Source of the DNA: Pirellulales bacterium
Lineage (GTDB): Bacteria > Planctomycetota > Planctomycetia > Pirellulales > PALSA-1355
Length of the DNA: 64,000 nucleotides
Assembly (NCBI GenBank): GCA_022844125.1
Contig: JALHMI010000006.1
Coordinates: 248,001 to 312,000, forward strand
Direction of reading: 5' to 3'
Under the pieces are notes generated by a model. It was not told the origin of the DNA and searched no databases. It saw only the letters and a program-made list of their open reading frames with translations. Made by a program: the position numbers and the translations under genes. Below are positions 15,401 to 46,500 of the stretch, in pieces. How positions within the stretch are numbered: position 1 is the stretch's first letter; every line of letters begins with the position of its first letter.

Positions 15401-15744
15401 GCGATCTACCTCTTGCTAGGCGTGAGCCACGGAGATTGCCGGAGACTTCTCTACGTTATCAAGTCGACGACCGGCGGTGTGTTAATATCTGGCACGTCAA
15501 ACTTGTGCTAACAACTATTCTCGTGATTGGCAGCGCTCGCGCCGAGCACTGCGGTGATTGTCTGGAGTGCGGTCGATGGGGAGCAAATCGCCACCTCGAA
15601 GGTGCACGTTAGAGGCCTCTGCGTTCTGTCGCCATTCAAGGTTCTAAGGTCCGCAGGGGCCAATGTCAATTTTCGTTGCTCGCGAGTTTGAGTCTACCTA
15701 TGCTTAACGGGAACATTTCTTCTCGGCTCAAGAGGATTCGGAAC
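15401..15744. other. Divergent control region between the MoxR operon and the giant TPR gene
   Basis: No gene is seen. The right end carries the promoter candidate for the TPR gene. A TGGCACG (15490-15496) with a misplaced TTG looks like a broken sigma-54 site and was not accepted. Expression of both operons must start here. Confidence 0.6.
15676..15704 (+). promoter_or_regulatory. Candidate promoter of the giant TPR gene
   Basis: TTGCTC (15676-15681) and TATGCT (15699-15704) with a 17-base spacer. An alternative ATG at 15700 would overlap the -10 element, which supports starting translation at 15745. Matches to consensus are only moderate. Confidence 0.35.
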
Positions 15745-18700
15745 ATGTGCCGCCAGGAACTGGACCAGTGCGCTCGCTTTGTGCGCACTCTTGTCCTTGT
15801 CGTTTCGCTGGGATTCAGTTTCGCGTCGGCAGGGCAATCTGCCCGTGCCCAGGATGAGAATCCAGCCAGCAAGGCCAGCTCGCAGGCCGTGGTAGACACA
15901 GCGGAAGAGAGTCCGGAAGTGGCCAAGGAACGAATCGCCGCCGAGCGGTTCCTGGAGCTGCTGAAGAAGCGCCCACGCCTGGGCACGGCGCTCGATAAGG
16001 TCTACGGCTATCACGTGGCTCGCGGCTCGCTCGATGAGTTCACCGCGTCGCTGCAAAAAGAAGCGGAAGCCAAGGGCGATGGCAATTTGTGGCTCGTATT
16101 GGGGATGGTCCAAATGCAGCGTGGTCACGACGCGCTCGCCGCCGCGTCGCTCGAGAAGGCCGAAGCGGCACTGCCCAAAGAGCCGCTGGCCAGCTACTAC
16201 CTCGGCAAGACCCTCTTGATGGTGGGCGAAGTTGACCGCGCCGCCGAAGCTTATCGGCGGGCTATCGATCGCAAGCCGGCGCGGGCCGACCTCTTGGCGA
16301 TCTTTCAGGACTTGGGGCGCATCTACCAGCGTACCGGTCGCAACAAGGAAGCACTGGAGGTCTGGCAGCAACTCGAGAAGCAGTTCCCCGGTGACTTGCA
16401 GGTCCGCGAACAGATCGCGGCGATTCTTGCCGAAGAAGGCGCGACGGCCGCGGCACTCGAACGCTACACAGCGCTGGCCAGCAGCGTGAAAGATCGCTTC
16501 CGCAAAGTGGAGCTGGCCGTTCGTGCCGCGCAGCTCAAGGCCCAGCTCGGCAATACCAAGGACGCACTGGCCGACTTCGAGAAGCAGCTCGCGCAGGTGA
16601 ACCCCGAGAGCTGGCTGCATCGCGACATCCGCCGACGCATCGAGGAAGTATTCTGGTCCAGCGGCGACATTGACGGTCTCGTCACGTACTACACCGATTG
16701 GGTCAAGCGCAATCCGGACGACGTCGACGCCATGATGCGCACGGCGCGGATGCTTGCCGCGCAGCGCCGGGTGCCCGAGGCTGAGCAGTGGTTTCGCGAT
16801 GCGATCAAGAAGTCTCCCACGACGCCCGAGCCGCGGCTGGCGCTGGTCGAGACGCTGGCCGGCGACGATCGCTATGCCGAGGCCGCCAAGGAAATGGAGC
16901 AGCTCGTCGAACTGCAGCCCGCTAATCCTGACTACCTTGTCCGTTGGGGCGAGTTGATCTATTCCGACGACAAACGGCCGCAGGAAGAACGCCGCCAGGA
17001 GGCGGGCGAAGTCTGGCGCCGGATGCTCGTTAAACGCGGCGACGACCCTGTCACAGTCTCGCGCGTGGCCGACCTGCTGCGCGCGAGCGGCAACACGGAC
17101 GCCGCGATCGAACAGTACCAGGCGGCCATCAAGCTGGCGCCGAACGAACCGCAATACCGTGAATACCTGGGTGAGTTCCTGCACCAGCTGGACCGCAAGG
17201 ACGAAGCCCTGGCCGCATGGCGCGAACTGGCGAGCGGAGAGCGCGAAACGCGTGACAACCTGGTTCGGTTGAGCGAAGTGCTCGGCACGTTCCACTTCAA
17301 CGCCGAGGCGCTCGAAGCCATCGCCAAAGCCTGCGAGATGAAGCCCACTTTCGGGCATCGCACGCGGTATGCGGAGTTGTTGCGCGACGCGAAACGTTAT
17401 GACGATTCGCTCAAGCAGCTCGATCTGGCCGAGCCCCTGGCCGAGGATCCCGAACTGCGCGAACTGTTAATGAGCGAGAGGATCAAGAACTATCAGGCGG
17501 CCGGTGAGCTTGAGACGCGGATCGAGGAAGCGCAGGCCGCTGTGGAAGGCGCGAAAGCGGACGATCCCACGGCCTGGAAGCTGCTCGCATTACTGCACGA
17601 CGCGGATCGCAAGTTTGAAGCGGCCTGTGACGCGATCGATAAGGCCACGCAACTGGCGTCGAACGACGTCTCGATCTGGGAAGCCGCCGCCACGCTGCAG
17701 GAGCGAGCCGGCCGCTTTGGCGACGCGATCGACTCCTACCGCAAGCTCTCGACGCTCGATCGCCGCTACCTGAGTAGTTACCTGACGCAGATCGCGTCGC
17801 TTGAAATGCGAATCGGCAACGTCGAAGCGGCATTGGAAGCTGGCGAACAGCTCATCGCCTCGGCGCCCGGTAACTCCGAGCATTATCGGTTCTTCGCAGA
17901 TCTCTGCTTCCGCACCGGTAACGGCACACGTGGCTTGGAAGTGCTTCGTCGCAACGTGCGCGGCAATCCCAACGATCCCGAGGCCGTCAGCTATCTGGCC
18001 CGGATGCTGTCCGAGGAGTTCGAAACGGACGAAGCGATCGAGCTCTATTGGCGGGCCTTCGAACTTGGCAAGGATCTTGATGAGCGGTCGACGGTAATTG
18101 CGCCGCTGACCGAACTCTATTTGCGCACGAATCGATTCGAGGCCCTGGTCGAGCGGCTGCAATCGATCGGCCGCGAACAGAACAAGCCGCGCGACGCCGC
18201 GCTCTGGACTGCCGCCGCGCACCAGGCCGCCGGCGACCTGGGGATGGCCAAGCAACTACTGGAAGGTCTGGCCCGCGAGGATACCCGCGATACGAAGCTC
18301 TTTGAACAACTCGTGGCGCTGTCGCGGGCCGAGTTTGATTTTCAAACGGCCGTGGAGTATCAGCGCAGGCTGGTGGCCGCGGCGCCGACGCCGGAGGCCG
18401 AGTATCTCTTGGGCAACTTGCTGCTGGAGCTCGGCGAGATCGACGAAGCCGAGGCGATGTGGCTCAAGCTTTCGCAGCGCGGCAACGATCGCAAAGCGCT
18501 CGACGCATCGATCGGGACACTGATTAACAAGGAACAATATGAGACAGCCGCCAAGGTGATTGACCGGGCAATGGCCTCGGCCCCGAGCAATTGGGAGCTA
18601 CTAGGCCCGGCGATGATCGCTTATGTCAAGCTAAACCGGTACGAAGACGCAAAGCGGATTGCCGAGCGCGTACTGGCAATGAACGTCGAGCCGGGGGAGC

Positions 18701-21700
18701 CGACGGCGGAGACGCGTGAGAACATTAAGAAGCAGCAAGCTCGCGGCGGCAAGCAGCTCAACCAGTACGACCCCTATGAGTACCTGGGTCAGCCGACGCG
18801 GATGCAGCAAGTCGTGCCGCAACTCAAAGCGGTGTTCACCGGCAATGCGAATCAAATGCAGTACGGGGCAAATGCCTTGCGAGCGCAGTGTTTTCAGGAC
18901 GTCTACCTGCTGGCCTCGCTCGTGCCGCTGCTGAGCGGTGGTGATAAATTCGATTCCAGCAAGTTCATCAGCGAGTATGTCGACGCGGCGCTCGCGTCGG
19001 GCGACGTGAAAAAGCTGTGGCAGGCCGTTTCTTATCTCATCTGGGAAGATCAGCGGGTGATGTATTCTCAGACGCCCAGCGAGCAGTACCAGAAGTGCCT
19101 GGATGCACTCGTTGGGCGAGACGAACCCTACGCGGCGACCTTGCAAATTCAGAAGATCGTCAATCAGCGCAACAGCGCCGCTCGAACCGCCAGCGGAGAG
19201 GCCCCGCCGCTCGACAAGGAGACGGTCGAACAGGTCAAGCGCCTGAACAGCATTGCGGCACGGCTGAACAAGCGAGGAAATCCGAACTACTACGACATCT
19301 GGCTGGCCGGCGAACTGGCTCGGGCCGGCGAGCAGGAAGAGGCCGACAAGCTGATCGATCGCTACGTCGAGCAGGCCAAGGGGAGCTCCAGCGGACCGAT
19401 GGCCGCGATGCAGGCCGCCGCCATGCTGCTGTCGGGTAATTTTGGCGGCAAACCATCGGAGAACACGATCGAACGGGCAATGGCGCTGTTGCGTGGGTCG
19501 TTGAAAGAAATGGGGAGTAACACCTCGCAACTCGCGCAGCTCCGCGGCAACCTCGGGCAGCAGATTGCCATGCTGGCCGATACTCTTGTCGAGCGCGATC
19601 GGCTGGACGATGCGATCGCGTTGATCGACGAGGTTCTTAAGGTTCAAACGGTACAGAACTCGCAGTTGCGACCGTCCCAGCGGCAGCGAACGCCGAGTTC
19701 GCAGAACGCCCTGAGCTACAACGTGCAGGTCAATCGCCAGTACGTGCAGCGAAGCGTGATGTTTCCCCCGGTCACGCCGGCCTTTGGCGCGGACGCGATT
19801 CTGACCGTGCACGGCGTGTACTCGGCCGCCAAAGAGGACGAAGTCAAGCTGGCCAAGCTGATGACTCAGCTCGCAAGCTGGGCCGGCGAAAAGACGGAAG
19901 ATCCAAACCTGCGCGCCGCGCGGATCCTGGCCAAAGCCTCGGTTCACTACTGGCTTGAGGATCGTGCGGCTACGGAAGAGACCCTGCGAGCGGCCGAGGA
20001 CCTGCAGGTCGATCCGCAGGACATCGCCCTGATGCGTTCGCGATTGCTGTACGAGTCGGGCAAGGTTGAAGAGGCACTCAAGCTGATCGAATCGCTTAAG
20101 CCGACCAACCAGCAGATGATGGTTGACCGCGAGCTGACGATCCTGCAACTCGTGCTTCAGCAGGGCGATTTGGAGCGAGCCAAATCGAGCGCCCAGCGAT
20201 TGTTCGCGTTGCGGCTTGATGCGAACACGGAATTCAAGCTCGCGGATCTCATGTACCAACTCGGCATGCGCGAGCTGGGCGAGCGCATGATGGGACGTAT
20301 CCGGCGGCGGGCCGGAGGCCAGCAGAATACGCTCAACCAGTTGATGAACCGTTATGTCGAGGCCGGCGACAATAAGGCCGCGGCCGAGATCGCCCGGCAG
20401 ATCGTTCGCCGCACCACGCCCCGCGGCTCGTCGAATCACTACACGTCAGAGAACGTCCAGCACGAACAGGCCGTTCAGGTCCTGGCCCGGGCCGGTGAGC
20501 TCAACGAACTGATCAAGCACTATGAAGGGCTTGTCGAGCGCTCTCCCAAGAGTACCAAGCTGATCGATCAACTGTGCGCTTTCTACGATGCGGCCGGCCG
20601 CCGCTCTGACGCAGATAAACTGCGGATCAAGTCGGCCGAGAACGCGCCGGACGATCCGCGAGCCCTGTACGCCGCTGGACAACAACTGGCCCGCTTGCAA
20701 AAGCATAAGGAAGCTGCGGAGAAGTATATCGCCGCGGTCACCAAGTCGCCCGAGCTCCTCAATAACAATTACTACGAGATGCGCGACACGTTCACCAATG
20801 CCAAGGCCTGGGGCCAATTGGCGGACAAGATTTCTGAAAGCGGGATCAAGAAGTTCACGCAGAGCTATCGCCTGAGCGAACTCTGCAACGAGCTCGGACA
20901 ACAAAAGGAACCCGAGGCGCTGAACCGGCTGCTCTATGCGGCGATGTCGGAGCTCAGTTGGAACGAGTTGACACAGATGATGTATTCCCTGGGTTCGCTC
21001 AAGTTCAAGCCCGAGGCCAAGCTGGTGGCGCTGGTGGCCGAGAAGCTGACCGATCCCAAGGCCAACTTCGATCAGTTCGTGAACAACGCCTTCGTCTGGT
21101 CGCGGAGTCAGGACGGCCAGACCAGCGGCACGATCAACGGCATCACGTCGATCGTGATGAGCGATCCCGAACTGGTGCAGAAAGTATCGACCGCGATGCA
21201 GGCCCGGCTGGAAAAATCAAAAGACGATCTGTTCCCGCGAGCGTTGTTGTGCATGTTGCTCGTCAGGCAGGAGAAGTTCGACGAGATGGAGGTGCTGTTG
21301 CAGCCGATTCTCGACAAGAAGGAGAAACAGCACCAGGATGCGCAGGCCGTCTGGTCGCTGGCTTCCATGCTCGCCCACGAATCCAAGCAGCCGGAGCGGG
21401 CGGCAAAGATCCTGGAAGCCACCGGTGCGGAGGTCTTCAAGATCAACGAGAGTTCCGACTTCCAGTACACGGCGATGTCGCTGCTGGCGTTCTCCTATGA
21501 GAAGGCAAACCGACCGTCGGACGCGCATCGTATCCTGATCGAGGAGCTCAAGAAGATTTCTCCCGTCGATGAGCGTTACGCGAACAATCCCGGCTATGCC
21601 GAGTACCGCTACTTGAGTTCGCTCGTCGGACTCTCCGAGCGGTTTCTGAAGATGGGCTATCCGGCCGAGGCGTTCATTGCTCACCGCAAGGCGTTTGCCG

Positions 21701-22566
21701 ACGAAAGTATCCAGCAGCGGGCAATGCAATGGGGCGGCAACAATTATGCCCAGCAGAAGGATACGCTCGCCAAGCAGATCGCCAGCCGCAGGAACATCGA
21801 GGCGATGACCAAGATTATCACGAGCACCCTCAACCAAGCCGCGCCAGAGGCCAGCAACGATTCGGCGAAGACCGAAGTTAAGGATGAATCGATTGCCACG
21901 ATCAGTCAATTCTTGAGTGAGCCAATGATTGCCCGCAACTCGCTGCTCGATACACGCATCAGCATGCCGCTGGAAGAATTCATCGAAGGAGTGGCCAAGG
22001 AAGATCGCCTGAAAAAGGAGATTGCCGGCAAGCTCCAGGAGACGCCACTGCCCGATGCTGCCGCGTCGGTTCCGCTCAAGCAGCTTGTCACGCGGCTGTT
22101 GGTGAGTGACGCTGTGGGCGAGACGGTCGAAGTCGAGGCGACCAGCAAGGCGATCATCGCCTGGGCCGCCGCGCACGCCCCGCCGGAAGCTCAGGAGCCG
22201 GACAAGTCACCTCCCGCTGAAGTGAAGGACAAACCGGCCGACGCAACCAAGCCGGCCGCCGCTGTGGCGGACAGAAAAGAGCCGCAAGTTCTCAGCGATG
22301 AGTTGTTGCTGGCAATGGCTGCTTTGCGGATGCCGGAGAAGTCGGTCGATCAACAGGAAGTTGTCAAGCTACTGGATCGCGCGATTGTGGCGGCCCAAGC
22401 AGAGAAAGAGGCCGCGCTGGTCAGCAGCTTGCGGTGCCAGGTGGCGCGTCGGGTCGCCTCCCGCGAACCGGAGCGTGCTCGCAAGATGTTACAAGAGGCG
22501 CTCGACGAGCTCCTGCCCCCGGCCAAGCAGCAAGCAAGCCTTGGCACCGCGAAGGAGAAAAACTGA
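15745..22566 (+). CDS. Giant exported TPR-repeat protein (2273 aa)
   Basis: Start chosen at ATG 15745, which has AGAGGA eight bases upstream and gives a signal peptide (FVRTLVLVVSLGFSFASAG, cleavage near SARA). Nearly the whole length is degenerate tetratricopeptide-like helical repeats, for example LASYYLGKTLLMVGEVDRAAEA, with Ala/Leu/Glu-rich pairs spaced about 34 residues. Near residues 1320-1400 a Gln/Arg/Ser-rich linker interrupts the solenoid, and a Pro/Lys/Ala-rich linker (EPDKSPPAEVKDKPAD) lies near the C-terminus. No enzymatic motif is visible. Its stop (TGA) overlaps the start of the next gene by one base, so the two are translationally coupled. A periplasmic scaffold is the simplest reading. 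Divergent linkage to the MoxR/VWA operon suggests they work together, but that is inference. Confidence 0.9.
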   Translation: MCRQELDQCARFVRTLVLVVSLGFSFASAGQSARAQDENPASKASSQAVVDTAEESPEVAKERIAAERFLELLKKRPRLGTALDKVYGYHVARGSLDEFTASLQKEAEAKGDGNLWLVLGMVQMQRGHDALAAASLEKAEAALPKEPLASYYLGKTLLMVGEVDRAAEAYRRAIDRKPARADLLAIFQDLGRIYQRTGRNKEALEVWQQLEKQFPGDLQVREQIAAILAEEGATAAALERYTALASSVKDRFRKVELAVRAAQLKAQLGNTKDALADFEKQLAQVNPESWLHRDIRRRIEEVFWSSGDIDGLVTYYTDWVKRNPDDVDAMMRTARMLAAQRRVPEAEQWFRDAIKKSPTTPEPRLALVETLAGDDRYAEAAKEMEQLVELQPANPDYLVRWGELIYSDDKRPQEERRQEAGEVWRRMLVKRGDDPVTVSRVADLLRASGNTDAAIEQYQAAIKLAPNEPQYREYLGEFLHQLDRKDEALAAWRELASGERETRDNLVRLSEVLGTFHFNAEALEAIAKACEMKPTFGHRTRYAELLRDAKRYDDSLKQLDLAEPLAEDPELRELLMSERIKNYQAAGELETRIEEAQAAVEGAKADDPTAWKLLALLHDADRKFEAACDAIDKATQLASNDVSIWEAAATLQERAGRFGDAIDSYRKLSTLDRRYLSSYLTQIASLEMRIGNVEAALEAGEQLIASAPGNSEHYRFFADLCFRTGNGTRGLEVLRRNVRGNPNDPEAVSYLARMLSEEFETDEAIELYWRAFELGKDLDERSTVIAPLTELYLRTNRFEALVERLQSIGREQNKPRDAALWTAAAHQAAGDLGMAKQLLEGLAREDTRDTKLFEQLVALSRAEFDFQTAVEYQRRLVAAAPTPEAEYLLGNLLLELGEIDEAEAMWLKLSQRGNDRKALDASIGTLINKEQYETAAKVIDRAMASAPSNWELLGPAMIAYVKLNRYEDAKRIAERVLAMNVEPGEPTAETRENIKKQQARGGKQLNQYDPYEYLGQPTRMQQVVPQLKAVFTGNANQMQYGANALRAQCFQDVYLLASLVPLLSGGDKFDSSKFISEYVDAALASGDVKKLWQAVSYLIWEDQRVMYSQTPSEQYQKCLDALVGRDEPYAATLQIQKIVNQRNSAARTASGEAPPLDKETVEQVKRLNSIAARLNKRGNPNYYDIWLAGELARAGEQEEADKLIDRYVEQAKGSSSGPMAAMQAAAMLLSGNFGGKPSENTIERAMALLRGSLKEMGSNTSQLAQLRGNLGQQIAMLADTLVERDRLDDAIALIDEVLKVQTVQNSQLRPSQRQRTPSSQNALSYNVQVNRQYVQRSVMFPPVTPAFGADAILTVHGVYSAAKEDEVKLAKLMTQLASWAGEKTEDPNLRAARILAKASVHYWLEDRAATEETLRAAEDLQVDPQDIALMRSRLLYESGKVEEALKLIESLKPTNQQMMVDRELTILQLVLQQGDLERAKSSAQRLFALRLDANTEFKLADLMYQLGMRELGERMMGRIRRRAGGQQNTLNQLMNRYVEAGDNKAAAEIARQIVRRTTPRGSSNHYTSENVQHEQAVQVLARAGELNELIKHYEGLVERSPKSTKLIDQLCAFYDAAGRRSDADKLRIKSAENAPDDPRALYAAGQQLARLQKHKEAAEKYIAAVTKSPELLNNNYYEMRDTFTNAKAWGQLADKISESGIKKFTQSYRLSELCNELGQQKEPEALNRLLYAAMSELSWNELTQMMYSLGSLKFKPEAKLVALVAEKLTDPKANFDQFVNNAFVWSRSQDGQTSGTINGITSIVMSDPELVQKVSTAMQARLEKSKDDLFPRALLCMLLVRQEKFDEMEVLLQPILDKKEKQHQDAQAVWSLASMLAHESKQPERAAKILEATGAEVFKINESSDFQYTAMSLLAFSYEKANRPSDAHRILIEELKKISPVDERYANNPGYAEYRYLSSLVGLSERFLKMGYPAEAFIAHRKAFADESIQQRAMQWGGNNYAQQKDTLAKQIASRRNIEAMTKIITSTLNQAAPEASNDSAKTEVKDESIATISQFLSEPMIARNSLLDTRISMPLEEFIEGVAKEDRLKKEIAGKLQETPLPDAAASVPLKQLVTRLLVSDAVGETVEVEATSKAIIAWAAAHAPPEAQEPDKSPPAEVKDKPADATKPAAAVADRKEPQVLSDELLLAMAALRMPEKSVDQQEVVKLLDRAIVAAQAEKEAALVSSLRCQVARRVASREPERARKMLQEALDELLPPAKQQASLGTAKEKN

Positions 22567-31565: not shown

Positions 31566-32600
31566 ATGGGCGAGACAGGGTTACCGGTAACCGTTCCCGA
31601 ATCCAGGCCGCGTGCAGCGCCGATCGCCCGGTATGTGGCGTGGACGGCAGTTTTAAGTCTGGCCGTGCTGGCGACCGTCGAGGCCCGGCAGTATGACGCG
31701 CTGGCCGCGCTTTCTGCAATTCCGCCCTGGAGCTGGTGGATCGGCGCATCCGCAATTGTCGTGGTCGCACTGGTTCGCTGTTCGCTTCGAACTCGATTGG
31801 CCGTCGTTGCCATCCTGCTGATGATCGGCGCGAACTGGGTAGAACAGTTTTCCAGCATCGCCAGGTCCACGCTCGACTTCGCCTCTGCGGATCAATCTCG
31901 GCCCTGGCTGCGAGTAGTCAGCCTGAACTGTTCAGCCGGATCGAGGCGGGCGGCCGAGGAAGTTGCCTCCTTCAACCCCGACGTCGTACTCCTGCAAGAG
32001 TCTCCCGGCCGGGACGTGCTGGCAGAACTCGCGACGAAGTTGTTTGGCGCGCAGGCCAGCGTTCTAGTGACGGGCGACTGCAGTATCCTTGCGCGCGGCA
32101 AGCTGCAGTTTATCAGCGAATCGCGAAACCATTTGCATGCCACGCTTGATCGTGCCAATGGTCGCACCGTGCACGTGGTGTGCGTACGACTGCTGCCGCC
32201 AGTCGTGCGATACGATCTCTGGGCTTCGAGCTGTTGGCGCGAGTATCGAGCAGCCCGCGAGAAACGTCGTGCCGAAGCTCGAGAGATTGCTCGCAAGCTG
32301 AGCGAAGTACCTGTTGGCGAACTCATCTTGCTTGGGGGTGATTGCAACGCGCCGGCTGGCGATGGAGCCCTCCAAGTATGGGCACCAAGAGTTCAGGACG
32401 CCTTTTGCTCCGCTGGCAGAGGCTGGGGTGCGACCGTGCTGAACCGAATGCCCGTCCATCGTTTCGACCAGGTATGGGCCACGGCCATGCTCGCGCCGCA
32501 ACGGGTAACCGCCGTGAAGAGCAGCTACTCCGACCACCGGATGGTCGTCGCAGATTTCGTCACTCCCGCCGACGGGCCCGAGCCGAATCGTGAGGGTTAG
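31566..32600 (+). CDS. Membrane-anchored endonuclease/exonuclease/phosphatase-fold protein
   Basis: The 344-aa protein has about two or three N-terminal membrane helices (residues 20-95), then an EEP-fold catalytic domain. Expected active-site residues are present: N121 in VVSLNC, E145 in VLLQES, D259/N261 in LGGDCNAP and D323-H324 in SDHRMVVADF. The topology, with the catalytic domain after the helices, resembles secreted-face EEP proteins. The substrate could be a phosphodiester in nucleic acid or lipid. The stop codon overlaps the stop of the convergent kinase-tubulin gene by three bases (32598-32600 against 32597-32599). Confidence 0.88.
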   Translation: MGETGLPVTVPESRPRAAPIARYVAWTAVLSLAVLATVEARQYDALAALSAIPPWSWWIGASAIVVVALVRCSLRTRLAVVAILLMIGANWVEQFSSIARSTLDFASADQSRPWLRVVSLNCSAGSRRAAEEVASFNPDVVLLQESPGRDVLAELATKLFGAQASVLVTGDCSILARGKLQFISESRNHLHATLDRANGRTVHVVCVRLLPPVVRYDLWASSCWREYRAAREKRRAEAREIARKLSEVPVGELILLGGDCNAPAGDGALQVWAPRVQDAFCSAGRGWGATVLNRMPVHRFDQVWATAMLAPQRVTAVKSSYSDHRMVVADFVTPADGPEPNREG

Positions 32601-35600
32601 GTCGCTGCTTGAGCCGCCGGCGTCGGCTGCGTCATCGAGAGCACTGAAGCGATGGCTGCCGCGCTTGCAGCGGATTCCCTGGGTTCGCTGAACTCGCCGG
32701 CGCTTCTATCGGCGGCTGCCTTGGCGGCAGCGCAGCTAGTCGGGCTGGGAAGCTCTGTCCAGTTGATGTCCACGCGCGTGTGCAACCGCGAGGCAATCTC
32801 GGTGTAATCGTCGCGGCCGGCGATCAATCGTTCGGCCACATGCGGCAGCGAAAGTTCCTGCTGCTCGTAGCACAGCAAAAGATCGATCTCCTGGGACGGG
32901 ATGATCGTCGGCGCGGGTTCGAGCCGTCTGCGGAGTGCCTCCACGAGCGGCTGACTCACCTCACCGTCCGGCACGAGAGCCAGCATTCGCTGCGAGCCGC
33001 CGCAATCGACGGTCGTCGGCCGGGCCAAATCCTGGCAAGCCCTCAATCGCGTGGTCTTGGTCTCGTCGTTCGCGTCCTGTCCTAGCACAGCTTCGGCAAG
33101 CGCGATGTCTTTGAGTGCGGCAAGAACCTGGGAGCGGGCTTCGGCTTTGAGCGCGGCGAGCAGTCCCGCACGCAGGGCGTCGGCTTTCTGGCAGACGTGC
33201 CGCAACCCGCCGTGCGGCGTCAGGTACTGCGCTTCAATCCGCTGGTCGATGTTTCGCGCAAGCTCGGGAAACCTGCTTTGCAGTTGCTCGGCAAGCGAGT
33301 CTTCAACTTCATCCAGAATGTTCGCGGCCGGCGGTGCTTCCTCGTCGTCCCAGGGGAAGTCCGCGTCGAAAGCTGCCGCCGACTGCCCCAGCTCGCGCTG
33401 TAAATCCTTTATCTGGTCGCCCGCGGCGGTGACGCTCGCAATCAGCGTGCGTACGATCTTGGTCACGCAGCGGAGGGTGAACTCCTGCAATCTCAGGCGA
33501 AGCAACAGCAACAGCATTGCGTCGATATCCGAGGCGTGCTTCTGCTCCGCGCGACGCATGCCGAACATTCCGCGCTTGGCCGGTTGGGTGGCCACGGCCC
33601 GCAGTCGTTGTTCCAGCGCGGACACGTTCTGTTGCGTCTCTTTGACGATCTCGGCGGCCTCGGCATCAAGCTGCTTGAGAAAGCCCGCGTACCAGTCTCG
33701 ACATGTGGCGGCCCAGCCGACGCGTGCCTGAGGATCGTCGACCTGCCGGAGGATCCAATCCTTGATCGCTTCGCCATAGGGAGTTGCCAGTTGCTTCAGC
33801 CCGCGTTCAATCGTGACATGTGCAGGCGGTAGCGGAATCTTGAGCCCGTCAGCGCCGACTGCCGGCGGTTCGACCACTTCGCGAATTCCTTGCAGCATCG
33901 GCAGCGTGTGCTCGGCGGGCGAGAGCCGCGGATCGAGCTTACTCTGCAATCGGGCGAGGATTGTTTCCGCATCGCTGCCCAGTTCTTTGTCCAACAGTGC
34001 GCCGACTCCTGTGCGCAAGGCGGTCAGGTCCAGGGCCAACGATGCGGCATGCTGTTCGCCGCTTGTAAGGCCTTTTGCCGGGGCAAATAGCGCAGGTGGC
34101 GCGCCGCGTTGCCGTCGCTGCTGATTGGCCCCCCGCCAGTGATCGAGCACTCCCTGGCAGAGCAGCTCCGCCGCCAGTCGTGGCAGCGACGTCTGTAAAG
34201 TGCCGATCGAGGCAGTCGCGAATCCGCGCAGCGAAACCTCGGCGCTTTGGGCCGAGGTGCTCGCGCGGCATCCATCGAGGATCGCGGCGGCCGGAGTCGC
34301 AGCGCTCAGGTACAAGTACGACGCCAGCTTTTCGGTGGCTTCTTCGTAATCGGCGTCGCTCAGTTCCGTGCCCAGGGGTACGAAGTAGACATTCGGCAGG
34401 TCTCCCCCAGTTTCTGGCGCGGGCAGTCCACCCGGCCCAGGCTGGTAGCCGGCCTCGCGGTAGTGCTGCAGTTCTTTGAGGCACGCGTAGGCATTAGCCG
34501 TGGCCAGTTCGGCGGCCGAAGTGTTGCGGTCGGTCGAATGCGTGAGCACGGCGCTCACGCCGTCGTCGGGGCAGCCCAGGTCCGCCAGGATCCTCCGCGC
34601 GGCGTAGGCCAGGTCGAGCACCATGCCGCCGCCGGTTCCACCCGAAAGCGAAGCCACGACGAACACGCGCGGCCGCGTGGCATCAAACTCGCAGTGTGCG
34701 GCCTTGCTCGAAGCGGCGACTGACTCCGGAGAGATCATCGTCGTGAGTGCTGCCCGAATCTTATCGAGGACCTGGGGAGCATGATCGACGAGCGCCAGGC
34801 GGCCCAGTGGCCGGCGTCCTTCGGTCTGCAAAGAGCGCGGGATGTTGTACAGCCAGCGGCGGCTGAGCCAGCCCAGGATATTGCGGCTGTCGGTCGTATA
34901 GTCGTGCGCGCCGCGCAGCGGCAGCGACAGCGTTTCGCGATCCGCCAGCGAAGTGGCCCGGTCCCCCTCGGTCATCTGATAGAGGAACCGGGCGTCGGTG
35001 TCCAAGAGCAGCATCGGCATCGCGGGGAGACTCGCCGCCGGACCAAAGCGATCGGCCAGCCGGCGGCGCAAGCGGCGCAGCGCCCGGCCTGCCGTTCCGC
35101 CGATACCCACGAACAGCGTGGGACGCAGCGCAGTCGCAACGTCCGTGAGGTCGAGCGGTCCCAACTCGGCGATCGGCTCGAAGAGTTTCTTATGGGCAAG
35201 CGCCGCCGCGCAGCGCGATTCGCTGAGCGGCGTCGATTTACGCTCCTCGCCGCGGACCATCGTCTGCGAGCCAGGTGATTCCACTTCGCGGCCGGTGTTT
35301 GGGGCGGTTCTGGAATCGGCCGAACTGATCGGGGTCGTGTCGACGTTTGCTTTGCGCGTCGCAGGATCGGGACGCGGCGCATTGATCGTCTGTCCGTACA
35401 GGGCATCGACCATCGAGCGGCAGTTTGGAAACCGTGCGGTCGGCTCTTTCGCAAGTGCTCGAGCGATGGTCGCCTGATCGTTCGCGTTCAGGCCCGTAAA
35501 TTTGGGAATGGCGTGCAGGTGTTGCGAAGCGAGTTGCGCTGGAGTGCGGCCAGGAAACGGAAGGCTGCCCGTCAGCATCTCTTGATACACGATCGCCAGG

Positions 35601-36190
35601 CTGTACTGATCACTCCGCATGCTGGGGCGATCATCGAAGACTTCCGGCGCGGCATAGATCGGCGTCAGGCCGCCCATCATCGAGGCGGTGGCGTCGTGCT
35701 GCAAATCTTTCACTAACCCGAAGTCCGCGACTTTGACGTGCCCGCCCACGAGCAACAGGTTTTCGGGCTTCACGTCCAGATGCTGGAGCGAGAAGCTTTC
35801 ATTCATATAGTCGAGAGCGTCGGCAGCATCCCGCAAGTAGCGCAATAGTTCGTCGCGAGGAATGCCTTCACAGCCTTCCTGCCGAACCTGTTCATAACGA
35901 TCCTTGAGACTCATGTCCGCAAGTTCGGTGACGATCACCAACTGGCCGTCGACGATCTCGAATCGCTCGAGCGAGAGTAGAAACGGATGCCGTACACCTT
36001 TGATGCGGTCGAGGGCCTTGAGCTCACGCGTCGCCCGGGCATCGTCGAAGTATCCGTAGACGAACTTGATTGCCTTGCTCAACCCACCGGGCGCTTGCGC
36101 ACTCCAGACTTCACCGTAACCCCCCACGCCGATACGTTGTTTCACAACGTATCCGGGAATCGGTTCGCGAATTTGGGTTTTGTTCGACAT
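32597..36190 (-). CDS. Ser/Thr protein kinase fused to a tubulin/FtsZ-like GTPase domain
   Basis: The 1197-aa protein opens with a kinase domain: G-loop GVGGYG (21-26), lysine K42 in AIKF, catalytic H137-L-D139-V-K141 with N144, and D156-F-G. An activation loop ends APEVF. The linker (about 270-355) is Pro/Ser/Thr/Arg-rich. Residues 358-530 look like the tubulin-like (Tub_2) domain: TLFVGIGGTAGRAL (358-371) as the first nucleotide loop and GGTGGGM (517-523) as the tubulin signature motif. The remaining 650 residues are helical and charged, ending in an Ala/Ser/Thr-rich tail. No membrane helix is seen. It follows the FHA-EAL gene by six bases, so phosphorylation by this kinase and FHA phospho-recognition probably belong to one pathway. 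Kinase call near certain; tubulin-like call strong on motifs only. Confidence 0.9.
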   Translation of the reverse strand: MSNKTQIREPIPGYVVKQRIGVGGYGEVWSAQAPGGLSKAIKFVYGYFDDARATRELKALDRIKGVRHPFLLSLERFEIVDGQLVIVTELADMSLKDRYEQVRQEGCEGIPRDELLRYLRDAADALDYMNESFSLQHLDVKPENLLLVGGHVKVADFGLVKDLQHDATASMMGGLTPIYAAPEVFDDRPSMRSDQYSLAIVYQEMLTGSLPFPGRTPAQLASQHLHAIPKFTGLNANDQATIARALAKEPTARFPNCRSMVDALYGQTINAPRPDPATRKANVDTTPISSADSRTAPNTGREVESPGSQTMVRGEERKSTPLSESRCAAALAHKKLFEPIAELGPLDLTDVATALRPTLFVGIGGTAGRALRRLRRRLADRFGPAASLPAMPMLLLDTDARFLYQMTEGDRATSLADRETLSLPLRGAHDYTTDSRNILGWLSRRWLYNIPRSLQTEGRRPLGRLALVDHAPQVLDKIRAALTTMISPESVAASSKAAHCEFDATRPRVFVVASLSGGTGGGMVLDLAYAARRILADLGCPDDGVSAVLTHSTDRNTSAAELATANAYACLKELQHYREAGYQPGPGGLPAPETGGDLPNVYFVPLGTELSDADYEEATEKLASYLYLSAATPAAAILDGCRASTSAQSAEVSLRGFATASIGTLQTSLPRLAAELLCQGVLDHWRGANQQRRQRGAPPALFAPAKGLTSGEQHAASLALDLTALRTGVGALLDKELGSDAETILARLQSKLDPRLSPAEHTLPMLQGIREVVEPPAVGADGLKIPLPPAHVTIERGLKQLATPYGEAIKDWILRQVDDPQARVGWAATCRDWYAGFLKQLDAEAAEIVKETQQNVSALEQRLRAVATQPAKRGMFGMRRAEQKHASDIDAMLLLLLRLRLQEFTLRCVTKIVRTLIASVTAAGDQIKDLQRELGQSAAAFDADFPWDDEEAPPAANILDEVEDSLAEQLQSRFPELARNIDQRIEAQYLTPHGGLRHVCQKADALRAGLLAALKAEARSQVLAALKDIALAEAVLGQDANDETKTTRLRACQDLARPTTVDCGGSQRMLALVPDGEVSQPLVEALRRRLEPAPTIIPSQEIDLLLCYEQQELSLPHVAERLIAGRDDYTEIASRLHTRVDINWTELPSPTSCAAAKAAADRSAGEFSEPRESAASAAAIASVLSMTQPTPAAQAAT

Positions 36191-36196
36191 GACCAG

Positions 36197-37369
36197 CTAC
36201 CTGGCAGCCTGACGTTCGCGCGGCGGAGTTCGTAAAGCGTGAATGAGCGAAGCCACGGTCTGCGGCGTTCCAAACAGCTTGCCCTGGGCCAGCGTGCAAT
36301 CGAGAGACTGACACACTTTCAGGTCGGTTTCGGTGTCGATGCCCGTGGCGATGACGGCCACGTTCAAGTCCTGGCTGGCCTTGACGATGAGTTGCACTTG
36401 ACGCTGGCGTTCGGGGCTCGAGTGGATGCTGCCGAACAGCGATGGCGCGAGCTTCAAGTAGTCGGGCGCGACGTCCTTGTGCTCGCTGATGCGGGCTTTA
36501 CCGGAAGCATACCCGTCGTAGGCGACCTGGATTTGCACGTCGCGGAGGCAGGCGAGCAGGGCCCGAAAATCGGCTGTCCCGCGCACGGCACTGTCGGGAA
36601 TCTCGACCACGATCTGCCGGCTGCTGCCCACGAAGTTCCGTAGTTGACACAAGTGGCTGATGAGCGCGGGCTCGGCGCTTTCGGCCGCCGTGATCGCCAG
36701 GAGCAACCGGCCGCCGTGAGGCAGGCTGGCGGCCTCTTCGACGGCGAGCCGGCGGAACAACTGCCGCAGGCGGGCCGCGGCCCGGCATTCCACGGCCGGC
36801 ACCAGCGTTTCGCAGCGTGAGCAGGCAGGACCATCGGCACTGACGGCAGCGAGCGCTTCGTAACCAAAGATATCGCTCTTCGACAGATCCAGGATTGGTT
36901 GATAAAGCGTTCGCAAGCAGCGATGCGTCACCACTTCGTGCGTGCGCCGCACCGACAGGATCGTTTCCCATACGGTGTCGCGCTGCGTGCCGCCTTCGGG
37001 CGAGCGAGACATGATCTGCGTGGCGGTTTGGCGCCCCGCGCTGCCTGCTCCGCTGTAGAAAGTCAGCTCGACGTCGGCGACCATCAGCAGATCGCCATCG
37101 TTGAGTACGGCTTCGCTGATCCGCTGTCCGTTCAAGAATGTGCCGTTGGTGCTGCCCAGATCCTTGATCAGGTACTTGCGCCCTTGGCGACTGATGGCGG
37201 CATGCTCGCGTGAAACCTGGTGTGAGTCGACGCGCAAGTCGGTCGAGTCGTTCCGTCCGATCGTGAACGGAAGCGAGGCGAGCGGTGTCTTCTGGGTCGC
37301 GCCGCCCGGCGGATCGTGTTCCAGCCAGGCCGTGCCGACGCTGCTCTCCGGCAGGACTTGCGTTTGCAT
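36197..37369 (-). CDS. FHA domain fused to a degenerate EAL domain
   Basis: The 390-aa protein has an N-terminal FHA domain with the key residues IGRND, VSREHAAI and LGSTNGTFLNG (about 37-82), which bind phosphothreonine. From about residue 155 an EAL-type domain follows: YQPILDL then FGYEALA retains the E-A-L. The EIxE site reads VVEIPDS, the DDFG motif reads AYDGYASG, the lysine block reads LKLAPS without its Asp, and AEGVE reads ATGIDTE. Several metal ligands are therefore lost, and phosphodiesterase activity is unlikely. It may bind cyclic di-GMP or act as a protein adaptor. It is first in the operon with the kinase-tubulin gene. Confidence 0.9.
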   Translation of the reverse strand: MQTQVLPESSVGTAWLEHDPPGGATQKTPLASLPFTIGRNDSTDLRVDSHQVSREHAAISRQGRKYLIKDLGSTNGTFLNGQRISEAVLNDGDLLMVADVELTFYSGAGSAGRQTATQIMSRSPEGGTQRDTVWETILSVRRTHEVVTHRCLRTLYQPILDLSKSDIFGYEALAAVSADGPACSRCETLVPAVECRAAARLRQLFRRLAVEEAASLPHGGRLLLAITAAESAEPALISHLCQLRNFVGSSRQIVVEIPDSAVRGTADFRALLACLRDVQIQVAYDGYASGKARISEHKDVAPDYLKLAPSLFGSIHSSPERQRQVQLIVKASQDLNVAVIATGIDTETDLKVCQSLDCTLAQGKLFGTPQTVASLIHALRTPPRERQAAR

Positions 37370-37594: not shown

Positions 37595-39004
37595 ATGCAC
37601 TACTCCTCCGCCTCTCCCACGCTTAAAGTTCTGGTTGTAACGGAAGACCGAGTCCTGCAGCGCCAGTTGTCCGGGTTTTTCGATCTGGTTGGCTATCAGG
37701 TCTTGCAGGCTGCCGAACATGGCGCCGCGCTGGCTGCCGCAGCGGCCGAGCATCCGCAGATTGTGCTACTTGATGCCGAGCTTGCGGCCGCGGGCGATTG
37801 GGAGCTGTGCGGCTTGCTCACCGCCCGCCCGCCGGGCGCCGGGCCGTTCAAATTCCTGCTCGTCGATGAGCCCGACCAACAGCATCTGCACGAAGCGCTC
37901 GAGGCCGGCATCGACGACTTCCTGGTCAAACCCATCGCGTATGGCGAACTGCTTAGCCGACTTCGCGCCGCGGCCCGCGTGCTTGAGTACGATCGTCGCG
38001 TCAGCCATCAGAGCCGCGTCGATCCGCTGACTGGCCTGCTCAGCCGCTCGGCGCTTGCGGGGCATTTCCGCCGACAGCTCGCCGACCACAACGGTGCCTC
38101 GGCCCGCGTGGCCTGCGTAGTGATCGACATCGACTTCTTTTCACGCGTCGGCCGCCAGCAGGGCGCTGCCGCGTCGGACGCCCTTCTTCAAGCGTTTGCC
38201 CAGGAACTGAACCGATTACGAACCGGCTCCGAAGTGCTCGGATGCCTCGGCTCCGATCGGTTCTGTGCAATGCTTCCGGGGGCAACTGAAGCGGCGGCCG
38301 CCGAATGGGCGGAGAACGCCCGCGCGGCGCTCGTCGATTGCGAATTTGATCCACACGGAACTCCAGTCCACGTGACGATCAGCGCCGGCGTGGCCTCCGC
38401 AGAGCCCGCAGAACGAGCGGAGCAACTCATCGATCGGGCAATCCAATCCCTGGCCGGGGCGAAGGCCATGGGCCGCAATTGTGTCTGCCGCTCCAGCGAA
38501 CTCGTGACCGAGCCGAAAGCATTCGGCGCCTCGGAAAAGCTGTTCGAGCTCACCACAGTCCGCGACGTGATGACCCCCTGCACCGTATTTCTGGGCCCAC
38601 AGGAGCCCGTGGCCGAGGCGATCGAACTTCTGGATCGGACGCGGCTCGACGGCATCCCGGTGATCGACAACAAGGGCAAGCTGCTGGGTGTGTGCGAACG
38701 CATCAGCCTGGCTGAACTGGCCGAAACCGATCACGCCGGCAGCGTTCGCGAGGCGATGACTGCCGAGGTACAAACGTTTGCCGAGGACGAAAGCCTGGCT
38801 GCTCTAATGGAGCACTTCACGCGCGACAACAGCTCACTCGTCGTCGTTGTCGATGGCGGCAAGCCGGTCGGGTTCGTGACCTGCAATAGCCTGGTGGCGC
38901 TTTCGCGGCCGGTGAAGAGCCTATTGGCCGAGGCCGAATACAGCGACACCAGCGACTACCTGCTGGTGCCTGACCTCCGGCCGCTGGAAGCGGACAGCGT
39001 GTAA
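37595..39004 (+). CDS. Receiver-degenerate GGDEF-CBS pair signalling protein
   Basis: The 469-aa protein contains a response-regulator receiver domain (about 10-128; phosphoacceptor D60 in IVLLDAEL, K112 in VKPI). A GGDEF-type domain (about 140-300) starts DPLTGL and keeps the metal-loop aspartates in VVIDIDFF. Its signature, however, reads G219-S-D-R-F, so the second Gly and the Glu of GGDEF are changed. Two CBS motifs follow (VRDVMTPCTVF and VREAMTAEVQTF). CBS pairs usually bind adenine nucleotides. The combination suggests an effector that integrates phosphorylation and nucleotide levels rather than an active diguanylate cyclase. It diverges from the FHA-EAL gene across 225 bases and overlaps a 23-base repeat at its stop. 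Confidence 0.9.
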   Translation: MHYSSASPTLKVLVVTEDRVLQRQLSGFFDLVGYQVLQAAEHGAALAAAAAEHPQIVLLDAELAAAGDWELCGLLTARPPGAGPFKFLLVDEPDQQHLHEALEAGIDDFLVKPIAYGELLSRLRAAARVLEYDRRVSHQSRVDPLTGLLSRSALAGHFRRQLADHNGASARVACVVIDIDFFSRVGRQQGAAASDALLQAFAQELNRLRTGSEVLGCLGSDRFCAMLPGATEAAAAEWAENARAALVDCEFDPHGTPVHVTISAGVASAEPAERAEQLIDRAIQSLAGAKAMGRNCVCRSSELVTEPKAFGASEKLFELTTVRDVMTPCTVFLGPQEPVAEAIELLDRTRLDGIPVIDNKGKLLGVCERISLAELAETDHAGSVREAMTAEVQTFAEDESLAALMEHFTRDNSSLVVVVDGGKPVGFVTCNSLVALSRPVKSLLAEAEYSDTSDYLLVPDLRPLEADSV

Positions 39005-39049
39005 CGGTACTACTTGTTGACTACAAACGGCACTACTTGTTGATTACAA
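39004..39049. repeat. Tandem 23-base duplication at the junction of two convergent genes
   Basis: Two adjacent 23-base copies (39004-39026 and 39027-39049) differ at two positions and begin ACGG, followed by the core ACTACTTGTTGA. The second copy encodes the last residues (VVINK) and stop of the minus-strand ATPase gene. The first copy lies just beyond it and starts at the last base of the plus-strand stop codon. It looks like a recent slippage or unequal-crossing duplication. Confidence 0.85.
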
Positions 39050-40355
39050 CGGTGAAGTAGCTGTCCACCACGCGGTCGAAGTATTCCGGCCGCATCTCGA
39101 CCGGCAGATCGTTGTACGCACAATAGTTCCGCACCTGGTTCAAGAGGTCACGCGGGTGGCAGCGCCGCATCGGCCGCTTGCCGGCATAGTGCGTCTTTAC
39201 CAGGTAGTCGACAACCTCCGGACGATAATCGCAGCCAAACTTCTTGGCATACAGCTCGAACAAGCTCTGGAACTCCTCAGGGCTCGGATTGTTGACTTCG
39301 ATCTTGTACGGAATCCGCCGTAGAAACGCCTCGTCCACCAGGTCGCTCGGCTCGAGGTTCGTCGAGAAGATGATGAGTTGCTCAAATGGCACCTGGAACT
39401 TCTTGCCGGTGGACAGAGTCAGGTAGTCCTGTCGAGCTTCCAGCGGAATGATCCACCGATTCAGTAGCTCTGCCGGTTCGATCCGCTGGCGTCCGAAATC
39501 GTCGATCAGCAGGCACCCGCAGTTGCTCTTAAGTTGCAGCGGGGCTTCGCTGACGTTCGCCCGCGGATCGTGCCGGATTTCCAGGGCGTCCAGTGTCAGC
39601 TCGCCACCCACGACGACCGTGGGGCGGCGAATCTTGATCCAGCGTCGGTCGCCGTTCGTCGATCGCAGCAGGCTCCCTTCGCGTTCCTCGATCGCCTCGT
39701 GATAGGCTGTGTCGTAAAGCTTAATGATCTGGCCGTCTTCGATCAGGGCCTGCGGAACCCAGATGTGTTGCCCAAAGCACATCGTGATTCGCTTGGCCAG
39801 GGTGCTTTTGCCATTGCCGGGACTACCGTACAGGAACAGGCCCGCGCCGGAGTTGATCGCCGGGCCGAGTGTTTCGAACAGGTTCGGCTCGACGCAAATG
39901 TCGGAAAACGCCTTGGTCAGTTGCGATCGCTTGGGAGCCTCGGCCCGAATCGTCTGGGCTTCGACCGAGAGCACATAGTCGGCCAGCGGCACCGGCGCGG
40001 GACCGACATAGGCGCAGGTCTCAAAATAGGCCTGGGCTCGAACCCGTCCCTGTTCGGTCAGAGCGTAGCTGTAGTCACTCAGCGCCGCCGAACCGGTGTG
40101 CACGATGACTTGCCGGGTGCGCAGGTCCTTGAATACGGGCTCGAGCAATCCGAACGGCAGGCACAGGGCATCGGCCAGGGCTCGGCCGCTGGCGGTTCCC
40201 GTCAGGCTCAGGTTCTTACAAATCAATGACTCGACAAGCGAGGATGGCAGGCCGGCTTCTTCCAGTGAATGGGGTTCGGCCGGGCGGAATGCGTCGTCCG
40301 AAAGCAGCGAAGCCAGCAGGCTCTCGCGGGTATCGGTCGTGGTGGTGGTCGACAT
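39033..40355 (-). CDS. AAA-type ATPase with N-terminal helical (winged-helix-like) region
   Basis: The 440-aa protein has Walker A GSPGNGKST (177-185), Walker B CLLIDDFG (281-288) and a sensor region LIIFSTNLEPSDLVD. A lid-like C-terminal segment contains RRCHPRDLLNQV. The N-terminal 140 residues look like helical or winged-helix sequence, with TEQGRVRAQAYFE typical of wHTH-associated ATPases. A large insert between the two Walker motifs holds IKIRRPTVVVGGELTLDALE. It has no membrane segment. The family is common and uncharacterised in planctomycetes. It is convergent with the REC-GGDEF-CBS gene and may belong to the same signalling block, but this is only adjacency. Confidence 0.85.
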   Translation of the reverse strand: MSTTTTTDTRESLLASLLSDDAFRPAEPHSLEEAGLPSSLVESLICKNLSLTGTASGRALADALCLPFGLLEPVFKDLRTRQVIVHTGSAALSDYSYALTEQGRVRAQAYFETCAYVGPAPVPLADYVLSVEAQTIRAEAPKRSQLTKAFSDICVEPNLFETLGPAINSGAGLFLYGSPGNGKSTLAKRITMCFGQHIWVPQALIEDGQIIKLYDTAYHEAIEEREGSLLRSTNGDRRWIKIRRPTVVVGGELTLDALEIRHDPRANVSEAPLQLKSNCGCLLIDDFGRQRIEPAELLNRWIIPLEARQDYLTLSTGKKFQVPFEQLIIFSTNLEPSDLVDEAFLRRIPYKIEVNNPSPEEFQSLFELYAKKFGCDYRPEVVDYLVKTHYAGKRPMRRCHPRDLLNQVRNYCAYNDLPVEMRPEYFDRVVDSYFTVVINK

Positions 40356-43550: not shown

Positions 43551-46500
43551 CTATTGCCAGGCTTCGGTCGGCCAGACAATCGCCGTGCCGTCCATGCTGC
43601 CGCTGAGCAGCGAACGTCCGTCCGGCGAGAAACCTACCGCAGTTACGGCCTGCTCGTGATATCTGAGCGTCAGCAATTCCTTACCCGCAGTTGGACCATT
43701 GCCGGCCGGATCGCCAAATTCGATCGGACTGGCGTCCCAGATTTTCACCAACCGATCGCGGCTGCCAGTGAGCGCCCGCTGTCCGCTGGGCGAGAACGCA
43801 ACAGCGCTCACTGAGTCCGTGTGACCAGCGTAGCGAACGAGTGGTGCGCCCGTGGCCACATCGAAGACGACCGCGACGCCATTGGCGAGTCCGGCGAGCA
43901 CGCGGGCGCCTGCCGGATCAAAGGCGATGGCCACCAACGATGCCTCGGCCTGCCAGGAGCCAATCGCGGCGCCGTCGGCCACATTCCACAGCCGCACAAA
44001 ACCGTCGGCCCCGGCGGTGATGATCTTCGTGCCGTCCGGCGAAAAGTCGGCAGCCAAAGGAGCTCGCAGATCGCCCGGTGGCAAGTGTTCGATTGCGTGA
44101 AGCACTTTGCGTGAGCGCCAGTCCCAGAGTCGAACCGTACCGTCCTCGCCGGCGGTGAGCAGCAAGTCGTCATCTGCTGGAGAAAACCGCGCGGCGGAGA
44201 TTGCGCCGGCGTGCTCGCTCGGAAGCTGTTGTTCGGCCAGCCCGGTGGCGACGTTCCAGATCTTGGCGCGGCGATCGCTGCTGCCGGTGACGGCAAATTT
44301 GCCGCTGGCCGAGAAGCTCGTTGCCGTGATGCCACTATGAGGTTTGAACGAGAGCTCAGGTTCATCGCCTCCGGTCGCCGACCACAGAGCGGCGCCATTA
44401 CCGCCGACGGCTAGCACCCCGCCTTGCGGCGCATCGACCGCGGACCAGATGCCTTCGCGATGCTGGCTCAGTTCGAGATAGGGCTTTCCGCCAGGCGCGA
44501 AGACCTCGCCCATCGCGAGCGCGTCGAAACGGCGCACGTGCCCGCCACCGTGGCCGGCCAACTGGGCATTGGATCCCGCAGCCAGCAGCGCGCTACCGTC
44601 GGTCGTAAAGGCAATTGAGGTCAGCGCGTCGTCTCCGCGATAGAGCTCGCCGATCACCGTGCCCTTCGTTGGATTCCACAACCGAAGCACCGACTTCGTC
44701 ACAGCGCCGGCCGTTTCCTCGGACAAAGTTGCCACCTGGTCGCCGCGCGGCGAAATGTCGATTGCCATTACCGGTGTATCGAACGCATCGCGCCGCGCGA
44801 TATCGCCATGGACCAGCATCGCGGGCAATTCGCGTCCCGTAGCCGTGTCCCACTGGGCGACCGTTCCATCCTTGCTGGCGGTGAGCAGCGTTCTGCCGTC
44901 AGGCATGAATTCCGAGTCGGTCATCGCAGAGGTGTGCGCTTTTAATCGGTGCACCGCCGCGCCGGTCGCTCGATTCCACAAAACGCCATGTCCGGCATCA
45001 TCGCCTGAGAACAGCAGATCGCCTCTCGGTGAGATCGCGACGGTCGTTACAATCGCGAGATGTCCCTGGCCGAACGTCGCGTCGGCCGGGGCAATTCGGT
45101 TGGCCGACTTACGGTCGGGGTCGAGTTGCCACAGCGCAAGCTGTGCTCTGGAGGAGAGATCTTCGGCGCTGCCCGTGTCGTCTTGACTCATCGCGGCCAG
45201 CACCCACTCGCCGTCGCGTGTGACTGCGATAGCCCCGTTGCGGCCTGTGTTTTCCAGCGTCATGAGTTGCGAGCCCGTGTTCGCGTCCCAGATGCGCGCT
45301 GTACGATCGCCTCCGGCCGTGAGCAGCCGGGCGCCATTCGCGAAGTATGCCGCCCTCGAAGTCAGAAAATCGTGCCCCTCGGCCAAGGTCGCCTGACGCA
45401 CGCCCGTCTCGCTGGCGAACACGCGGGCTGCATGGTCGCCGCCGGCAGTAATTACGCGGCTACCGTCGGGCGAGAATGCCGCTGCCAACACCGCATCGGC
45501 GTGGCCGGCGAGGGCAATCCCCTGCGGCGCGGGCCGATAGTCGACCAGATCCCAGAGCTTGATCTCGCCGTCCTGCCCGCCAGAGAAAACCTGCGAGCCG
45601 TCGGCCGCGATCGCGCAAGCTTGCACGGGGCGGCTGTGTCCGCGCAGTTCGGCATACGGCCTGCCGGTAGCAACATCCCATACGCGGATCGTGTTGTCGT
45701 CGCCGCCGGAGATGACGTACTCGCCGGTCGGAGCGAACTGCACGGTACGAACCGGACCGCGATGCCCCTCGAGCGCGCGGCTCGATTGCGGATTAAGTGG
45801 TTGACCGGTACTCACGAGCTCCGCCAGTTTCAGGTCGGCGATTTCTTCGGGTCGCCAAATGTGCACGCGTTTGTCGTATCCGGCGCTGGCGACTTGTCGG
45901 CTATCCGCAGAGAAGGCAACAGCGAACACGGCCCCTTGATGGCCGACAAACACCTTTTGCGGCTGTGGCTGTCCGGCTTGGGCTGCAAAAGCCCACACGA
46001 TCACGCGGCCGTCTTCGCCTGCCGTGGCAAGTTGCTTGCCGTCTGGAGCGAATCGTGCTGCGAACACGGGACCGTAATGTCCGCTCAGTGTCATGGGCGG
46101 CTGCGACGGATGGTCGAGCTGCCAGACAAGAGCCGTGTGATCATTGGCCGCCGAAACAAGCCACTTGCCATCCGCGGAAATGTCGAGGCCTTGAATGCGG
46201 CCAGTGTGCCCAGTAAGCTTGGACAACGGCCGCCCGTTATCGATTCTTAGTACGTGAATCGTGCCGTCAGCTGTGGCTACGGCCAGCCGATCGCCGGTGG
46301 GCGAGACAACCAGCGCGGATACGCTCTGCTGCAGTTCAGTTCTCCAACGATCATCACCGCTCTTGCGATCCCAGGCCCGGACGTGGCCGTCGTCGCCGGC
46401 GGCGATGAGCAGGTTCGCGGTCGGGGCAAAGGCCACGCCGCGTACTGTCCCGCTGACCGGAAAGTCGCGCCCACCAGTGGCCAGTCGGCGCAGGTACCCC

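Follow-up and report, generated by a model that had tools for sequence, protein, structure and literature searches.

Why would a planctomycete join a protein kinase to a tubulin-like domain in one polypeptide, and with which other proteins would such a chain work? These questions are raised by a gene within a 64,000-nucleotide stretch of DNA from a Pirellulales bacterium, which was analysed as a whole and is called the window below. From the letters of the window, a complete Ser/Thr kinase had been read there, followed by a nucleotide loop and GGTGGGM, the signature of tubulin and FtsZ. The gene has the following features.

32597..36190, minus strand: kinase-Tubulin_2 (FtsZl1) fusion gene, a single uninterrupted ATG open reading frame of 1197 aa
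35489..36151, minus strand: Ser/Thr protein kinase domain, residues 14-234 (PF00069, E 4.1e-29; catalytic motifs all present)
34244..35116, minus strand: Tubulin_2 domain by Pfam match, residues 359-649 (PF13809, E 2.4e-36; fold match to tubulin, CetZ and TubZ)
35087..35107, minus strand: T1-like loop GIGGTAG, residues 362-368, aligning with VIGVGGGGGN of FtsZ
34994..35002, minus strand: DTD motif, T3-like, residues 397-399, aligning with NTDAQAL of FtsZ
34781..34870, minus strand: family signature W-S-RRWLYNIPRS-TEG-RPLGRLA-D, residues 441-470, invariant or nearly so in 52 homologues
34625..34642, minus strand: T4 loop GGTGGG, residues 517-522, the tubulin signature, conserved among homologues

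Kinase and Tubulin_2 domain in one chain

The kinase half contains the residues that define Hanks-type Ser/Thr kinases (catalytic K, E, H-x-D, N, DFG and APE): a G-loop GVGGYGEVW, K42, E56, HLD at 137-139, N144, DFG at 156-158 and PE at 182-183. These catalytic residues are conserved to about 90-100% among 30 homologues, and the domain matches solved kinases of the PknB type and others. The kinase is apparently catalytically active, as predicted from its motifs, and the original prediction of a complete kinase is borne out by the Pkinase match and the conserved catalytic residues. Fused reading frames of similar length were found in dozens of independent genomes. Therefore, an assembly artefact or a chance fusion is excluded.

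In the Pfam search, the protein scores 126 bits against PF13809, for which the cut-off is 27; no match to PF00091 was found, and residues 359-649 were not assigned to an unrelated P-loop or Rossmann family. The T1 loop (G362 90%, G364 100% and G365 94%) and the T4 loop, which reads SGGTGGG at 516-522 in its context, are conserved in the 52 homologues, in agreement with their reading as a nucleotide loop and tubulin signature. Invariant in the same set are G364, G517, R445, W446, P451, G458 and E573. The family signature is located between the T3-like and T4 loops. In the region expected to hold T7 (residues 618-645), a recognisable or conserved catalytic NxDxxD/E motif was not found among the 52 homologues; D639 is present in 60% of them, and position 629 is D or N in 70%. 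Since the acidic pair of T7 is not conserved, GTP hydrolysis by assembly is doubtful.

An alignment with a single FtsZ sequence by hhalign covered the T1 to T3 region alone, with a probability of 16%. A PDB sequence search with a profile of the tubulin region gave coiled-coil-type matches only. Hence, the tubulin homology is based on the Pfam match and on the predicted fold.

The kinase-tubulin fusion as such is already published and is not novel. Makarova and Koonin (2010, PMC2875224) defined the family as FtsZl1, which equals PF13809, and their text describes an N-terminal kinase in four members from planctomycetes; this report is repeated in PMC9871819. According to the text of PMC11032199 (2024), which covers cytoplasmic planctomycete Ser/Thr kinases of the same architecture, a tubulin-like domain is the commonest partner exclusive to these kinases. 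An experimental characterisation of the published fusion was not found in the accessible text of the literature on kinase-tubulin fusions.

Predicted fold and the C-terminal region

An AlphaFold model of residues 345-1197, calculated from an alignment of 52 sequences, has a pLDDT of 88.8 and a pTM of 0.83. The top fold matches in the PDB are all gamma-tubulin, CetZ, TubZ and other tubulins (probability 1.00, best E-value 1.7e-4), with modest TM-scores of mostly 0.34-0.47 by target; a fold search of BFVD contributed phage tubulins only. The model shows the tubulin Rossmann GTPase fold that a comparison with FtsZ and TubZ had been expected to reveal. Profile and predicted fold thus support the central claim of the original prediction, i.e. 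a kinase and a tubulin-superfamily domain in one polypeptide. The protein resembles FtsZ, CetZ, TubZ and gamma-tubulin in its predicted fold and in the GTP-binding loops T1, T3 and T4, but differs from them by the missing PF00091 match and conserved T7, a long insertion and the kinase.

In FtsZ, the elements that follow S6 are H7, H8, S7, H9, S8, H10, S9 and S10. In the model, S6 is followed by a helix (612-631), a second helix (634-643), a strand (653-662) and a third helix (669-686). Beyond residue 686, long helices extend to about 1055, and then a strand, a helix, two strands and further helices are observed. By comparison with the order in FtsZ, we take these elements to be H7-H8-S7-H9, a coil and S8-H10-S9-S10. 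The two resulting segments are:

33026..34126, minus strand: helical/coiled-coil insertion, residues ~689-1055, at the putative H9/S8 junction (AlphaFold secondary structure; coil-less relatives)
32783..32995, minus strand: C-terminal alpha/beta part, residues ~1066-1136, assigned as S8-H10-S9-S10 (DSSP of the model)

Three relatives (L053, L025 and L022) have no coil but keep the conserved segments that flank it. With almost nothing in between, their S7 region is followed by the conserved C-terminal strands and the tail. These coil-less kinase-tubulins comprise 778-874 aa (L053 8576-10912, L025 8457-10823, L022 9243-11867). Because of the element order in the model relative to FtsZ and because of these relatives, the coiled coil of about 370 aa is probably an insertion within the tubulin C-terminal domain, between H9 and S8. 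A conserved RLHTRxDxxW segment follows the C-terminal alpha/beta part, and GG--RLL is conserved as well. The 650-residue C-terminus, which had been described as helical and left unexplained, is indeed mostly this coiled coil; its last part, however, is alpha/beta in the model and would partly belong to the tubulin domain.

The layout reported for FtsZl1 in the text of PMC2875224 (FtsZ-like domain, coiled coil, mostly alpha-helical C-terminal region and, in planctomycetes, a kinase fusion) fits the model, apart from the alpha/beta character of the last part. The T6-H7 segment and the C-terminal domain of FtsZl1 could not be placed in that work. The predicted split C-terminal domain therefore bears on the completeness of the FtsZl1 tubulin fold.

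The protein could also be a static scaffold, in which the coiled coil mediates oligomerisation and the nucleotide bound by the tubulin domain acts as a switch or is structural only, with no GTPase-driven dynamics. This is possible but rather unlikely. The T7 motif is not conserved and most members have the large helical insertion, as expected for such a scaffold; the strong conservation of T1, T3 and T4, on the other hand, argues against it. Several coil-less relatives also retain kinase, tubulin and partners, so that the module does not depend on the coil.

Partner genes and distribution

The fusion gene is accompanied by three genes in the window.

36197..37369, minus strand: FHA-EAL gene, 390 aa (PF00498, E 3e-20; PF00563, E 4e-34)
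37082..37264, minus strand: FHA domain, residues 36-96 (G38, R39, S53, H56 and N75 invariant)
36263..36919, minus strand: EAL domain, residues 151-369, catalytic set decayed to 5/10 positions (EAEDDGKATQ)
37595..39004, plus strand: REC-GGDEF-CBS gene, 469 aa, GGDEF motif decayed to GSDRF
39033..40355, minus strand: cluster-specific AAA+ ATPase, 440 aa (Walker A GSPGNGKST, Walker B CLLIDDFGR)

The FHA-EAL gene lies upstream of the kinase-tubulin gene, with 6 nt between them, and the invariant residues of its FHA domain are the phospho-binding set. The AAA+ ATPase has weak Pfam AAA matches and weak matches to spastin/VCP-type proteins. Its AlphaFold model is of lower quality (pLDDT 59.8, shallow alignment); the N-terminal region, with pLDDT mostly >80 at 38-113, may be a winged helix.

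At the 42 loci whose upstream flank measures 5 kb or more, kinase and FHA-EAL are both present in every case (42/42 each). Cultured isolates with the module include Lacipirellula limnantheis and Botrimarina colliarenosi (L092, L071). The AAA+ gene is located inside the locus in 26 of them, and REC-GGDEF-CBS in 22, on the opposite strand in 22/22. Clustering of all neighbouring reading frames gave no further recurring neighbour, the next family being present in 7 loci. What is new here is that the fusion travels with FHA-EAL, with a dedicated AAA+ ATPase and, in about half of the cases, with REC-GGDEF-CBS. FHA and EAL are not mentioned in the main text of PMC2875224, and a module, partner genes or a structure for tubulin-like kinases were not found in the accessible text of PMC11032199. 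A literature search gave no link between FHA or EAL and planctomycete tubulin-like proteins.

We searched 58 genomes of the order for Tubulin_2, AAA+ and FHA-EAL. Tubulin_2 was found in 29 of them. The genomes with the cluster-specific AAA+ paralogue (>700 bits) are precisely the 26 that carry the fusion family (Fisher p 4.5e-17, relatedness ignored); this count takes in genomes with the AAA+ gene on another contig. Copy numbers of AAA+ and fusion agree, with the exception of one case at a contig edge. A two-domain FHA-EAL match above 170 bits is present in 25 of the 26 fusion-family genomes. The exception, G007, has a tubulin reading frame without kinase that starts directly after the AAA+ gene (L038, 4646-7165). 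This kinase-less genome without a full FHA-EAL fits a partnership of kinase and FHA, as one case.

A second AAA+ paralogue, mostly at ~500-630 bits, is widespread in the order (G000:C5:296370-297629 is cited for the AAA+ family). Additional FHA-EAL copies distant from the tubulin gene were observed in fusion-family genomes only (G001, G006, G011, G016 and G026, and further G028, G032, G033, G034 and G038).

Since kinase, AAA+ protein and a relic of nucleotide signalling resemble parts of defence modules, an anti-phage or conflict system was considered as well; we regard it as highly improbable. The kinase matches the PADLOC profiles mad6 and PD-T4-6, and the AAA+ protein weakly matches IetA, but these matches are confined to generic kinase and AAA regions, and the candidate was rejected for this reason. 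In addition, no toxin, nuclease or mobile-element family is recurrent among the neighbours, and the system is mostly present in a single copy per genome in the order.

In the class as a whole, 113 of 249 genomes carry Tubulin_2, and some of the kinase fusions lie outside the order. In families f23 and f26 and in G061, the fusion genes lack FHA-EAL and AAA+ in their vicinity, and the partners are therefore not a general requirement of the fusion; many genomes of this set carry 2 to 4 Tubulin_2 copies. Members of f22 and G070 do have the partner genes. According to the text of PMC2875224, FtsZl1 operons contain vWA, GTPase and OmpA proteins, in contrast to the partners FHA-EAL, AAA+ and REC-GGDEF-CBS observed here. 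Among the clustered neighbouring reading frames, vWA, GTPase and OmpA are not recurrent around fusion genes, and neither is MlaD. The non-kinase Tubulin_2 genes L021 and L143 of planctomycetes, in contrast, adjoin vWA and MlaD genes. Fusion and non-fusion members of Tubulin_2 seem to have different partners. At L132 (5233-11867), a further Tubulin_2 gene without a kinase match is immediately followed by the gene for a 1030-aa protein that matches HSP70.

These distributions are relevant for a dynamic cytoskeletal filament, in which GTP-driven tubulin polymers would shape membranes or divide a cell that has no FtsZ, with the kinase regulating assembly. This was the picture of the original prediction, and it is near the membrane-remodelling role proposed for FtsZl1 in the text of PMC2875224. 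Besides the tubulin fold and the GTP-binding loops, it is favoured by the window's own genome, which has one Tubulin_2 gene and no PF00091 FtsZ (present in 13 of 14 control genomes), the fusion being its sole detected tubulin-superfamily protein. However, a conserved T7 catalytic motif is missing, the vWA and MlaD neighbours of the non-kinase genes do not recur at fusion loci, and the family is present in 26 of the 58 genomes, with presence and absence both within 7 of 20 families. We therefore consider a dynamic filament unlikely. A function as FtsZ substitute was rejected, since so patchy a distribution is incompatible with a core role in division. The finding also bears on the use of tubulin-superfamily proteins by planctomycetes without FtsZ.

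Two kinds of FHA-EAL and the proposed phospho-scaffold

The FHA-EAL proteins are of two kinds. The EAL catalytic set is complete (10/10) in 25 of them, none of which adjoins REC-GGDEF-CBS, whereas every FHA-EAL protein neighbouring REC-GGDEF-CBS has at most 5/10 positions. Counted by EAL status, 32 decayed and 0 intact proteins are found with REC-GGDEF-CBS, 1 decayed and 28 intact ones without it. The window belongs to the decayed kind in both respects, with EAEDDGKATQ in the EAL set and GSDRF in place of the active-site motif GG[DE]EF.

The tree of kinase-tubulins was labelled by EAL residue status, labels by GGDEF presence being noisy at contig ends. The best tree has 7 changes of EAL state, of which 2 are forced by supported branches. 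EAL decay and GGDEF presence shift together about 2 (supported) to 7 times, a number too small for significance in an independent-pairs test.

The two kinds also differ in TQ[VILM] motifs. In the decayed class, 17/29 proteins have such a motif shortly behind the FHA domain and 16/29 have one at the N-terminus, with ~1 expected by shuffling; in the intact class the numbers are 0/28 and 1/28. We propose the motifs as candidate sites of phosphorylation or FHA binding, in analogy to the switches PknG/PknB-GarA/OdhI, where a kinase is likewise paired with an FHA protein bearing threonine motifs beside the FHA domain. OdhI and GarA are phosphorylated at a conserved ETTS motif. In contrast to them, the FHA domain is here fused to EAL, and the putative phosphosite is TQ[VILM].

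For the fusion, we favour a planctomycete FtsZl1 protein that has an N-terminal, apparently active kinase and acts as the hub of a conserved signalling module, i.e. a nucleotide (GTP)-binding phospho-scaffold; we give this reading about an even chance. Its basis is the presence of both domains in one chain, the constant linkage to FHA-EAL in the order and the exact co-occurrence with the AAA+ ATPase. From these we infer steps of assembly, phosphorylation, recruitment and remodelling. GTP-bound tubulin domains would associate, either directly or via the coiled coil, and bring the kinase domains together for mutual phosphorylation. The FHA domain might then dock on threonines in the kinase-tubulin linker (residues 280-345) or in the FHA-EAL protein, where T3 and T117 are candidates. 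In lineages with intact EAL, judged by its residues, the recruited domain would hydrolyse c-di-GMP. In the set of lineages to which the window belongs, EAL and the additional GGDEF, having lost their catalytic residues, may serve for binding or as a scaffold. Remodelling or disassembly of the complex would presumably be the task of the AAA+ protein. With FHA-EAL and AAA+ as conserved partners, hypotheses on binding and substrates of the fusion become concrete and testable.

A further version is a phosphorylation-gated system, in which GTP-dependent assembly of the split tubulin activates the kinase, phosphothreonine-FHA binding recruits EAL, the polymer sets c-di-GMP and the dedicated AAA+ protein acts as disassembly factor. 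We put this forward as a speculative and quite doubtful proposal. If true, a cytoskeletal polymer would control c-di-GMP, or a pseudoenzyme readout, in bacteria without FtsZ.

Three further loci of the window were observed in passing: another Ser/Thr kinase (1668 aa), in which an extended array of WD40-like repeats was recognised by eye (43551-48557, minus strand), a 2296-aa TPR-repeat protein (15676-22566, plus strand) and two vWA proteins forming a pair, of which one is BatA-like and the other has a GATase1-like domain (8820-13423, minus strand).
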